A DNA stretch of 64,000 nt. Origin: Mycobacterium sp. ITM-2016-00317. Its GTDB lineage: Bacteria; Actinomycetota; Actinomycetes; Mycobacteriales; Mycobacteriaceae. Under the pieces are notes generated by a model that worked only from the letters and a program-made list of their open reading frames with translations, did not search any database and was not told the DNA's origin. Below are positions 48,083-54,477 of the stretch, piece after piece. The stretch is from the NCBI RefSeq assembly GCF_002968295.1, contig NZ_CP134399.1, positions 1,550,001 to 1,614,000 on the forward strand. Reading direction: 5' to 3'. Numbering within the stretch: the first letter of the stretch is position 1; every line of letters begins with the position of its first letter. The translations under genes were made by a program, and so were the position numbers.

Positions 48083-51000
48083 ATGTCCGCGCCGCACACC
48101 GAACTGACGCCCGAGGCCCTGACCCGACGCGACGTGCGGGGCACGGTCCGGGTGCTGGGCGGGCCGGGCACCGGCAAGAGTGCGCTGCTGGTGGGCACCG
48201 CCGCGGCCCATATCGAAGCCGGCCGCGACCCGGAATCGGTTCTGCTGCTCACGGGTTCGGCGCGGTTGAGCGCCAGGGCCCGGGCCGCGGTCACCACGGC
48301 GCTGCTGGGCGCCGGAGGTCGCAGTGCCGTGCGCGAGCCGCTGGTGCGCACCATCCACTCCTATGCGTTCGCGGTGTTGCGGCTGGCCGCGCAGCGCAAC
48401 GGCAGCCCGCCGCCGCGGCTGATCACCAGCGCCGAGCAGGACGGCATCATCCGCGAGCTGCTGGCCGGAGACCTCGAGGACGGCGACGCGTCACCGGTGC
48501 GCTGGCCGGTCCGTCTGCGGCCCTCGGCACCGTCGGGTTCGCCACCGAACTGCGCGACCTGATGGCCCGCTGCAGCGAGCGCGGCGTCGATCCGCTTGCG
48601 CTGCAACGCCTCGGCCGCGCCGCAGGCCGGAATGGCAGGCCGCGGGCCGGTTCGCCCAGGCCTACGAGCAGGTCATGCTGCTGCGCGCGGCGGTCGGCAT
48701 GGCCGCCCCGCAGGCCACGGTGCCCGCGTTGGGGGCCGCCGAACTCGTCGGCGCGGCGTTGGAGGCCTTCGCCACCGACGCCGACCTGCTGGCCGCCGAA
48801 CGCGCGCGGGTGCAACTGCTGCTCGTCGACGACGCCCAGCACCTCGACCCGCAGGCCGCACGCCTGGTCCAGGTGCTGGCCGCCGGCGCCGAGACGACGG
48901 TGATCGCCGGTGATCCCCATCAGACCGTGTTCGGCTACCGCGGCGCCGACCCCGCACTGCTGCGCGGCGACGGGCCGGCGCTGACGTTGACGGCGTCGCG
49001 CCGGTGCGCGGCCCCGATCGCGGACGTGATCGAGGCGGTGGCGCGGCGGCTGCCCGGCGCGGGAACCGGGCGGGAGTTCGTCGGCACCGATTCGCCGGGC
49101 TCGGTCGCGGTCCGCATCGCGGCCTCGCAGCACGCCGAGTCCGCGTTGATCGCCGATGCGCTGCGGCGGGCGCACCTGGTCGACGGCGTGCCGTGGTCAC
49201 AGATGGCGGTGATCGTGCGCTCGGTGCCGAGGACCGGCGCCGCGCTGGGCCGCGCGCTGACGGCGGCCGGCGTGCCGGTGGACCTGCCGCACAACGATTC
49301 CGCGCTGGCCGACCAGCCGGCGGTGCGGGCGCTGCTGACGGTGCTGGAGGCGACGGCCGACGGGCTCGACGGTGACCGCGCGCTGGCACTGGTCACCGGA
49401 CCGATCGGACGCGTCGACCCGGTGTCGCTGCGCCAGCTGCGGCGGGCGCTGCGGCGCGCGGCACCGGAGAACGCCGGCGGTTTCGGCGAGCTGCTGGTCG
49501 ACGCGCTGCGGCGCGACCGCCACACTCTCGCCGACGAGCAGGCCCGTGCGCTGCGCCGGGTGTCCGCTGTGCTGACCGCTGCCCGGCGCAGCGCCGAACA
49601 GGGCAGCGACCCGCGGCACACGCTCTGGCAGGCCTGGCACCGGTCCGGTCTGCAGAAGCGCTGGCTGGCCGCGGTCGAGCGCGGCGGACCCGCAGGCGCG
49701 CAGGCCGACCGCGACCTCGACGCCGTCACCGCGATGTTCGACGTCGCCGAGCAATACGTGACCCGCACCGCCGGGGCGTCGCTGCGTGGCCTGATCGACC
49801 ACATCGGCGCGTTGTCGCTGCCGCCGGCCCGCTCCGCCGAGCATGCGCCGGAGGCGGTCGCGCTGCTCAGCGCGCACTCCGCGCTGGACCGGGAGTGGGA
49901 GTTCGTGGTGCTGGCCGGGCTGCAGGAAGGGTTGTGGCCCAACGTCGCCCCGCGCGGCGGGGTGCTGGGCACTCAGCAACTGGTGGATGTGCTCGACGGG
50001 GTCGTCGACATCGGCCAACGCGCGCTGTCGAGCAGGGCGCCGCTGCTGGCCGAGGAGCGCAGGCTGCTCATCGCCGCCATCGGCCGGGCCCGCAGCAGGC
50101 TGCTGGTGACGGCGGTCGACAGCGATTGCGGCGACGACGCGATGCTGCCGTCGTCGTTCTGCCAGGAGATCGCCGCGCTGGCCACCGAGTCGGATCCGCC
50201 GCCCGCGGCGCCGATCCGCGCTCCGCGGGTGCTGGCGCCGTCGGCTGTCGTCGGGCGGCTGCGCGCGGTCGTGTGTGCGCCGCCGGACACCGCCGATGAC
50301 ACCGAACGGGCCTGCGCGGCAGCGCAGTTGGCGCGGATGGCCGAGGCCGGAGTGCACGGCGCGGACCCGGCGTCCTGGTACGGCGCGCGGGGACTGTCCA
50401 GCGACGAACCGCTGTGGCAGGACGGCGACCACGTGGTGACGCTGTCGCCGTCGACGCTGCAGATGCTCTCGGACTGCCCGCTGCGCTGGCTGCTGGAGCG
50501 CCACGGAGGGTCCCGCGGCCGTGATGTGCGTTCCAGCCTGGGCTCGCTGGTGCACGCGCTGATCTCCGAGTCCGGGCGCACCGAGTCACAGTTGCTCACC
50601 GGGCTGGAGAAGGTCTGGGAGGAACTGCCTTTCGACGCGCAGTGGCACGCCGACAACGAACGGGCCCGGCACCTGGAGATGCTGAGCACCTTCCTGCGGT
50701 GGCGGGAGGACACCCGCGGCGAACTCACCGAGGTGGGCACCGAGGTGGAGGTCGACGGTGAGGTCGGTGCCGCCGATGGTGAGCTGCCGGCCGTGCGGGT
50801 TCGCGGGCGGTTGGACCGGCTCGAACGCGACAGCGAGGGCCGACTGGTCGTGATCGACGTCAAGACCGGAAAGAGCCCGGTGAGCAAGGACGACGCCCAG
50901 AGCCACGCACAGTTGGCGCTCTACCAGCTGGCGGTCGCGGCGGGCCTGCTCACCGAAGGTGACCAGCCCGGGGGCGGGCGGCTGGTCTACCTCGGCAAGA

Positions 51001-51194
51001 CCACCGGTGGGGGCGCCACCGAACGGCATCAGGATCCGATGACCCCCGACGGTCGCGCCGAGTGGGAACAGCAGGTCCACCGCGCCGCCGCGGCGACGCA
51101 GGGTCCGCAGTTCGTGGCCAGGGTCAACGACGGCTGCGCGCACTGCCCGGTCCGTACCATGTGCCCGACCCAGAACACCAGGAGCGACGCATGA
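48083..51194 (+). pseudogene. adnA: adnA, helicase-nuclease subunit A, with two frameshifts
   Basis: AdnA pairs with AdnB in the ATP-dependent motor-nuclease that resects double-strand breaks in mycobacteria. The first frame (48083-48562) carries the Walker A GGPGTGKSALL. Near 48520 the protein continues in another frame (ALGTVGFATELRDLMARC), and near 48628 in a third (EWQAAGRFAQAYEQV) that runs to 51194. The last frame has the RecB-type nuclease motif VIDVKTGKSP, QLALYQLA and the Cys cluster CAHCPVRTMC. The second break is exactly explained, and the first compatibly explained, by loss of one GGCC from a GGCCGGCC tandem; restoring both gives 1039 residues, the usual size. As written, translation stops after 159 residues. 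Confidence 0.88.
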
Positions 51195-54100
51195 CCGGTC
51201 CCCGCTACAGCCCTGCCGAACTCTCCAGGGCCTTGGGTCTTTTCGAGCCCACCGACGAGCAGGCGGCGGTGATCTCGGCCGAACCGGGGCCGCTGGTGGT
51301 GATCGCTGGTGCCGGCGCGGGCAAGACCGAGACGATGGCGGCGCGGGTGGTGTGGCTGGTCGCGAACGGCTACGCACGTCCGGGCGAGGTGCTCGGGCTG
51401 ACGTTCACCCGAAAGGCGGCGGGACAGCTGCTGCGCCGGGTGCGCGCCCGGCTCGCGCGGCTGGCCGGGGCGGGGCTGATGCTTCCCCCGGGCAGCGGCG
51501 ACCTCGCCGACGATCCCGTCACCATCAGCACCTACCACGCGTTCGCGGGAAACCTGTTGCGCGAGTTCGGGCTGCTGCTGCCGGTGGAGCCCGACACCAG
51601 GCTGCTCGGGGCAACCGAGTTGTGGCAGTTGGCTTTCCGCGTGGTGTGCGAGCATCCCACGGCGCTGGACACCGAGAAGTCGCCGGCCTCGATCACCGAC
51701 ATGGTGCTGCGGCTGGCCGGGCAGCTCTCCGAGCATCTGGTCGACACGGCGCAGCTGCGCGACACCCACCTCGAACTGGAGCGGCTGGTGCTCACGCTGC
51801 CTGCCGGCCGGTATCAGCGCGACCGCGGCCCCAGCCAGTGGCTGCTGCGGATGCTGGCGACCCAGACCGAGCGCACCATGCTGGTTCCGCTGATCGACGC
51901 GCTGCACCACCGGATGCGTGACGAGCGGGTGATGGATTTCGGCATGCAGATGGCCTCGGCGGCGCGACTGGCCGAGCAGTGCCCGCAGGTCGGTCAACAG
52001 CTGCGGCAGCGGTACCGGGTGGTGCTGCTCGACGAGTACCAGGACACCGGGCATGCGCAGCGGGTCGCGTTGTCCTCGTTGTTCGGCGGCGGCGCCGACG
52101 ACGGGCTGGCGTTGACCGCCGTCGGGGATCCGATCCAGTCGATCTACGGCTGGCGCGGAGCCTCGGCGACCAACCTGCCGCGCTTCACCACCGATTTCCC
52201 GTTCTCCGACGGCACCCCGGCGCCGACCCTGGAACTGCGCACCAGCTGGCGCAACCCGCCGGAGGTGCTGCACCTGGCCAACGAGGTGTCGGGCGAGGCC
52301 AGGCACCGCTCGGTGGCGGTGCGCGCACTGCAGCCACGTCCCGGCGCCGAACCCGGCAGTGTGCGGTGTGCGCTGCTGGGTGACGTCGAGACCGAACGGG
52401 AATGGGTCGCCGACCAGATCGCGTCCCGTTGGCACGGCGGGATCGAGGCCGACGGGGCCGCGCCGACAGCCGCGGTTCTGGTGCGCCGCAACGCCGATGC
52501 CGGACCGATGGCCGAGGCGCTGGGCCGGCGCGGGGTCCCGGTCGAGGTGGTGGGCCTGGCCGGGCTGTTGGCCGTGCCGGAGGTCGCCGACGTGGTCGCG
52601 ATGCTGCGGCTGGCCGCCGATCCGACCGCGGGCGCGGCAGCGGTGCGGGTGCTGACCGGGCCGCGGTGGCGGCTGGGTGCGCGCGACGTGGCGGCGCTGT
52701 GGCGGCGTGCGGTCAGCCTGGTCGACGGCGGAGGCTCCGCACCGGATACGGACGCGGCGACCGCGCAGATCATCGCCGCGCTCGGGCCCGACGCGGACGC
52801 GGCCTGCCTGGCCGACGCCATCTGCGATCCCGGCCCGGCCACGGCCTACTCGGAGGCGGGGCACGCCAGGATCGTCGCGCTGGGCCGTGAGTTGACCGCG
52901 CTGCGGGCGCACCTGGACAGCCCGCTGCCGGAGCTGCTGGCGGAGGTGCGGCGGCTGCTGGGCATCGACGCCGAAGTGCGGGCCGCCCAGCCCGTCTCGG
53001 CGGGATGGTCGGGCACCGAACACCTCGACGCCTTCGCCGACGTCGTGGCCGACTTCGCGTCGCGGGGCGCGACCACGGTGTCGGCACTGCTGGCCTACCT
53101 CGACATCGCCGAGCAGGTGGAGAACGGGCTGGCGCCGGCCGAGGTCACCGTGTCCGCCGAGCGCGTGCAGATCCTGACGGTGCACGCGGCCAAGGGGCTG
53201 GAATGGCAGATCGTGGCCGTACCGCACCTGTCCGGGCGGATCTTCCCGTCCACCGCGTCGCCGCGCACCTGGCTCACCGATGCCGCCGATCTGCCGCCGC
53301 TGCTGCGCGGTGACTGCGCGGCGGTGTCCGAGCACGGCGTGCCGGTGCTCGACACCTCCGATGTCAGCGATCGGAAAGGGTTGTCGGACAAGATCTACGA
53401 CCACAAGCGCAGCCTGGATCAGCGGCGCACCGACGAGGAACGCCGCCTACTGTACGTGGCGATCACCCGCGCCGAGGACACGCTGCTGGTGTCCGGCCAC
53501 CACTGGGGCGCCACCGAGTCCAAGCCGCGCGGCCCGTCGCAGTTCCTGGTCGAACTCAAGGACGTCATCGACACGTCCGACGCGGCGGGCACGCCGTGCG
53601 GCATCGTCGACGTGTGGGCCGAGGCCCCCGCCGAAGGGGAGTCCAACCCGATCCGGGACCGGGTCGTGGAGGCCGTGTGGCCGGCCGATCCGCTGGCCGG
53701 CGCCCGCACACCGACCGTGGGGCCGAGCTGGTCGCCACGGCCATGGCCGCAGCGCCGCAACCCGACCAGATTCCCGACGTCCACGGCTGGGCCGCCGACG
53801 TCGACGCGCTGCTGGCGGAGCGGGAGCTGGCCGCCCGCCGGCCGCTGCCGCGTCTACCGCAGCAGCTGTCGGTCAGCGCGATGGTCGAACTCGGGCGTGA
53901 CCCCGAAGCGGTCGCCGCGCGGTTGCAGCGTCGGCTGCCTCGCCGGCCCGATTCGCAGGCGTTGCTGGGCACCGCGTTCCACGAATGGGTGCAACGCTAC
54001 TTCCAGGCCGAGAAGCTGTTCGACCTCGACGACCTGCCCGGGGCGGCGGACGCCGACCGGGACGACCGCGGCGAGCTCGAGGAGCTACAGAACGCGTTCG

Positions 54101-54477
54101 CGGTGTCGCCGTGGGCGGCCCGCACGCCGGTCGACGTCGAGGTGCCCTTCGACATGATGCTTGCCGGGCGGGTGGTGCGGGGCCGCATCGACGCGGTCTT
54201 CGCCGACGACGACGGCGGGGTCACGGTGCTGGACTGGAAGACCGGCGAGCCGCCGGCGACCGACGAAGAACTGCGGCACAACGCCATTCAGCTCGCCGTG
54301 TACCGGCTCGCATGGGCCCGACTGCACGGGTGCCCGGTGGGTTCGGTGCGCGCGGCGTTCCACTACGTGCGGTCCGGGCGCACGGTCATGCCGGCCGACC
54401 TGCCCGACGAGGACGCGCTGACCGCGCTGCTGACCGAGGCGGCCGACGAGCAGGAGGTCGCTCAGCTGTCGCGGTAG
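51191..54477 (+). pseudogene. adnB: adnB, helicase-nuclease subunit B, with one frameshift
   Basis: AdnB provides the main translocase and a second nuclease domain. The ATG overlaps the adnA stop. The frame has GAGAGKTET (Walker A), LLDEYQDTGHAQ (motif II), TAVGDPIQSIYGWRGA (motif III), and [11 protein letters not shown] and YVAITRAED in the C-terminal helicase half. At about 53697 the reading frame changes: RRPHTDRGAELVATAMA continues one frame over to 54477 and contains the nuclease motif VTVLDWKTGEPP with AIQLAVYRL. Adding one GGCC at the tandem there restores 1096 residues, the usual size. As written, the nuclease domain is lost and about 150 unrelated residues are added before a stop at 54157. 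Confidence 0.88.

Follow-up and report, generated by a model that had tools for sequence, protein, structure and literature searches.

The frame-broken adnAB locus

The window, a stretch of 64,000 nucleotides covering bases 1,550,001 to 1,614,000 of a genome assembled as a single contig of 6,060,110 bases, carries two neighboring genes for the subunits of AdnAB, adnA and adnB. A tblastn search with intact homologues of both subunits, five AdnA and five AdnB out of 240 proteins, disclosed three reading frames for adnA, at window positions 48083–48526, 48520–48630, and 48624–51191, and two for adnB, from 51191 to approximately 53716 and then 53692–54474. This result confirmed the sequence-only reading of the locus, in which adnA shifted frame twice and adnB once. 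The pieces, compared with the intact homologues P0001 (AdnA) and P0121 (AdnB), are as follows.

48083..48526, + strand: adnA piece 1, start of the UvrD-like motor domain (P0001 residues 1–148, 96% identity; PF00580, E 1.4e-13)
48520..48630, + strand: adnA piece 2, 37 residues between both breaks (P0001 residues 148–184, 100%, in another frame)
48624..51194, + strand: adnA piece 3, remaining motor and PD-(D/E)XK nuclease domain, ending at the stop codon (P0001 residues 184–1039, 97%; PF00580, E 1.9e-16; PF12705, E 4.7e-47)
51191..53716, + strand: adnB piece 1, UvrD-like motor (P0121 residues 1–841, 96%; PF00580, E 1.3e-45; PF13361, E 1e-31)
53692..54477, + strand: adnB piece 2, nuclease domain, in another frame (P0121 residues 835–1095, 95%; PF12705, E 3.3e-17)

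Both subunits contain a UvrD-like motor domain (PF00580) and a C-terminal PD-(D/E)XK nuclease (PF12705), in agreement with the architecture of one motor and one nuclease per subunit given in passages of PMC13309787. The locus thus resembles AdnAB of mycobacteria in its two neighboring genes and their domains, but differs from it in that neither gene, as assembled, forms the one open frame of approximately 1040 (adnA) or 1095 (adnB) codons. Judged by their sequence, the underlying genes look ordinary, and we consider the split frames to be an assembly error. The adnA stop overlaps the adnB start in an ATGA at window positions 51191–51194, which may couple the translation of the two genes. A literature search on AdnAB frameshifts returned no title or abstract treating the present case.

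Residue numbering against P0001 (1039 aa, 97% identical) placed both adnA steps at a net 4 nt short, and against P0122 (1096 aa, 92%) it placed the adnB step likewise at a net 4 nt short; one further gap appeared in the adnB alignment when P0121 (96%, 1095 aa) served as the reference. The 4-bp loss proposed for each site was therefore recovered by this count at all three, among them the first adnA site, for which the sequence-only reading had also allowed a single-base loss. The subunit sizes of 1039 and 1096 residues predicted in the sequence-only reading, and described there as usual, match intact homologues of 1039 and 1095–1096 residues. Outside the steps, the pieces are 95–100% identical to P0001 and P0121, the nearest intact sisters, and the protein search found intact AdnA and AdnB with 96–97% identity in other data sets. 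Such close agreement with intact proteins speaks against real decay, that is, a loss of AdnAB end resection by successive frameshifts in both subunits. Decay draws some support from the finding of three breaks in one operon with the same net direction, and also from the rest of the window: a strict scan of all 64 kb returned these three breaks only, as the sequence-only reading had held, and by eye no further window row of a homology scan against M. aurum was judged real, both scans being able to miss breaks.

Frame breaks across the sampled chromosome

An ab initio frame-aware coding model revealed 54 strict frame breaks in 1,624,000 bases, or 33.3 per Mb. The sample, 27% of the genome, consisted of a 464-kb block containing the window and 58 scattered 20-kb stretches, with two further stretches left out because they overlapped the contiguous block. 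The strict filter required an open stretch of at least 60 nt beyond the switch, runs of at least 90 nt on both sides, and scores of at least 12 for both, and it misses breaks; a simpler frame scanner passed over the short middle piece of adnA. In samples of 400 kb each from two close complete genomes, whose sequencing platforms may differ from the one used here, the same scanner found 2 breaks for M. aurum (5.0 per Mb) and 1 for M. parafortuitum (2.5 per Mb). By extrapolation, approximately 200 false frame breaks are expected genome-wide.

Comparison with M. aurum over the collinear part gave 17 raw frame changes, from which 8 sites, adnAB included, were kept by eye. Homology added three breaks beyond the strict filter in this part, while a strict break near 1,541,815 was absent from the 8 kept sites. 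The reverse scan listed 7 raw frame changes, and inspection by eye kept none of them as an M. aurum break.

The breaks are Poisson-like along the sample, with a mean of 0.67 and a variance of 0.58 when counted in 81 bins of 20 kb. When 54 breaks were placed at random, at least three fell in some 6.4-kb window in 55% of simulations. Because three breaks per 6.4 kb arise by chance this readily (P 0.55), no weight attaches to the argument, made from the sequence, that clustering in one enzyme speaks for real decay. Decay argued from clustering was rejected on the break rate of the sample together with the chance simulation. The adnAB genes also exceed the window as a whole in GCCGGC density (2.97 vs 1.81 per kb) and in GC content (0.738 vs 0.695), which further counts against decay.

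Of the 54 breaks, 44 had pieces compared with family libraries, in many cases the longer piece only. Matches among the broken genes included FtsH, PriA, ParA, ParB, ProA, SucT, HemE, LysA, Fmt, GlpX, PhoH2, UvrA, SelB, an aldehyde dehydrogenase, and an allophanate hydrolase. Both pieces matched the family for FtsH, UvrA, ParA, SelB, aldehyde dehydrogenase, and allophanate hydrolase, while for HemE, LysA, Fmt, GlpX, PriA, ProA, ParB, and PhoH2 one piece only was searched. Eight broken genes were checked in four relatives, and seven (ProA, Fmt, SucT, FtsH, LysA, HemE, and UvrA) are full-length open frames in all four; the eighth, PriA, gave a whole-query match in three. In M. parafortuitum (G111:C1:4773804-4774460), the PriA match is limited to residues 1–211 of 434, and this copy may be divergent or broken.

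Several of the broken genes are essential in mycobacteria, and would presumably be so in this species. Since a cell with all these genes broken would hardly grow, the breaks are best read as consensus errors. With similar breaks at 33 per Mb throughout the 1.624 Mb sample, presumably essential genes included, we regard real decay of AdnAB as highly improbable. Of the two answers that the sequence-only reading had left standing, the data partly support its interpretation: a systematic error, yes; a decay of end resection, no.

Sequence context of the breaks and a NaeI-type locus

The 54 breaks fall into two frame senses, with 38 in one and 16 in the other. An open k-mer search returned GCCGGC as the top 6-mer of the larger class (14 of 38 vs 4.9 expected) and GCCTGGCC/GGCCAGGC as the top 8-mer of the smaller one (9 of 16 vs 0.2 expected); GCC(A/T)GGC likewise lies near 9 of the 16 opposite-sense breaks. 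Taken together, GCCGGC or GCC(A/T)GGC, the expanded motif being counted in its A and T forms only, occurs within 40 nt of 26 breaks (8.2 expected), and 28 of the 54 have neither. The motif forms were chosen from these same 54 breaks, which makes their p-values post hoc; the NaeI locus described below was found afterwards.

Alignments with relatives located the length differences. At the eight collinear sites compared with M. aurum, the net local difference is 1 nt (3 sites) or 4 nt (5 sites). For genes of the smaller class (n = 3), the aligned relatives are 1 nt shorter at or near the motif, while for FtsH they are 4 nt longer. Among 12 aligned sites inspected by eye, 5 have GCCGGC at the break in one or more relatives, and 2 more have it in the genome under study; the remaining 5, both adnA sites among them, have GCCGGC there in neither this genome nor an aligned relative, and one of these has GCC(A/T)GGC.

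The sequence-only reading had attributed each lesion to the contraction of a GGCC tandem. All five copies of GGCCGGCC that it listed exist, although the window holds 13 in total (shuffle mean 7.5). A count over the 1.624 Mb showed that GGCCGGCC is not depleted, with 145 per Mb compared with 120 and 155 in two relatives. This result, and the opposite frame sense of 16 of the 54 breaks, led us to reject GGCC-tandem contraction as a general rule. The suspicion of a systematic error, drawn from the identity of the lesions, is supported, while the lesion itself is not always a 4-base GGCC contraction. GCCGGC is not depleted here either (1839 per Mb vs 1530 and 1815 in two relatives), and therefore a few per cent of its sites at most are affected. 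An alignment-free search for motifs depleted relative to the relatives gave top lists without a clear signal.

Elsewhere on the contig, at G000:C1:905400-907357, lies a putative restriction-modification locus with an endonuclease, a C5-methyltransferase, and a Vsr-like ORF, all on one strand. The endonuclease matches the NaeI family over residues 29–304 of 325 (PF09126, E 4.9e-104) and the NaeI entries PDB 1ev7/1iaw by phmmer (E 3e-79). The C5-cytosine methyltransferase (PF00145, E 1.8e-50; 431 aa) is located 92 nt from it on the same strand. It is the one PF00145 methyltransferase in this genome, the only one of five genomes searched to carry a match; M. austroafricanum, M. aurum, M. parafortuitum, and a fourth genome (G039) gave no match to this family.

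A passage of PMC7653180 gives GCCGGC as the recognition site of NaeI, and one of PMC4081073 prints the site differently. The locus here resembles the NaeI system in its nearly whole-profile PF09126 match, its match to 1ev7/1iaw, the adjoining C5-methyltransferase, and the Vsr-like neighbor; it is unlike that system in being known from sequence, with a recognition site assigned through kinship to the NaeI family only. On this basis, the methyltransferase would be expected to modify GCCGGC.

NaeI endonuclease matches occur in 18 of 396 genomes of the genus, this one included, in a scattered distribution, and 17 lie above the cut-off. The genus as searched takes in Mycolicibacterium as well as Mycobacterium species. 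Two matches occur in the carrier G393, and in another (G314) the match consists of fragments with stops.

Origin of the frame breaks

We put at roughly 0.9 the probability that the breaks overall are consensus errors, likeliest through NaeI-type methylation misread in long-read data. For the adnA and adnB frameshifts themselves, a sequencing artefact is almost certain, and AdnAB is most likely intact in the living strain. That the artefact was caused by NaeI-type methylation is probable, although clearly less secure. According to this explanation, the C5-methyltransferase would lay 5-methylcytosine at GCCGGC, base-calling of nanopore-type long reads would misread the modified base, and the outcome would be a systematic insertion/deletion error across the whole sampled chromosome, much of it at GCCGGC-like sites. 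Two features of such an error are present, namely a concentration at one short motif and a spread irrespective of gene importance. From this pattern we infer both a nanopore platform and base modification as the cause of the miscalls; motif, enzyme, and error appear to fit well. Against this explanation stand the undepleted GCCGGC, the 28 breaks with neither motif form within 40 nt, and the 5 of 12 aligned sites without GCCGGC at the break.

Comparable cases have been published. The abstract of PMC11610573 relates nanopore assembly errors to nearby methylation sites, and passages of PMC10687267 connect Listeria genomes of low quality with a strain-specific system that bears a methyltransferase and has a motif of its own. 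The breaks described here are similar to these, as far as excerpts of the two papers go, in affecting particular motifs and some strains only. They differ in that the errors in those excerpts are mismatches or base errors, whereas ours are insertions/deletions and our platform is deduced.

A generic consensus error at GC-rich inverted repeats such as GGCC and CCGG in a high-GC genome would need no methylation. The motif is indeed a short GC palindrome, and the breaks also lie near GGCC (39 of 54; background 0.51) and CCGG (44 of 54; background 0.57). Yet M. aurum and M. parafortuitum have similar or somewhat lower motif densities and few breaks, a comparison in which platforms may differ, and homopolymers are only mildly enriched at the breaks (22 of 54, 0.41 vs 0.32 background). 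The core of the motif matches, moreover, the predicted recognition site of a restriction-modification system found in this genome. We consider a methylation-free artefact a possible but rather doubtful account.

NaeI makes a blunt cut at the center of GCC|GGC, and mycobacterial end joining is mutagenic. The breaks might then be real scars of self-cutting at this site, repaired by end joining that leaves small insertions or deletions, an outcome favored if AdnAB resection was lost. A gene for a NaeI-type endonuclease is present, and in three aligned genes of one class the length difference lies within a few nucleotides of the GCCGGC-like center. Some 200 breaks by extrapolation, with ftsH, hemE, lysA, and fmt, genes held to be essential, among those hit, would nevertheless be hardly survivable.

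Five other single-contig NaeI carriers, sampled at 80 kb each, bear on the same question. With the pooled coding model they showed 2, 0, 0, 1, and 0 strict breaks, or 3 in 400 kb, two of which fall in one 80-kb sample; with their own models they showed 1, 0, 0, 0, and 0. These counts are near the control level, and by eye the pooled-model break row of one carrier (G034) resembles the ordinary adnA/adnB junction. A NaeI system alone is not accompanied by heavy frame breaking in this small sample. The low counts speak against scars at NaeI sites, which we regard as very unlikely, and fit an origin in how the present genome was read. Toward the methylation link they are neutral, because a different sequencing method may have been used for the carriers.

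With methylation-linked consensus error as the preferred reading, the biology of AdnAB in this strain is ordinary, and the value of the finding is a caution on a reference genome. The extrapolated 200 or so false breaks of a single-contig reference could enter records as pseudogenes. A cytosine methyltransferase combined with breaks at its likely motif offers a cheap screen for other complete genomes. Should the breaks instead be real, a restriction system would be altering the genome of its host at the motif that it recognizes. Completeness scores are blind to this kind of error; the listed completeness is 99.62%, despite approximately 33 strict breaks per Mb in the sampled part.
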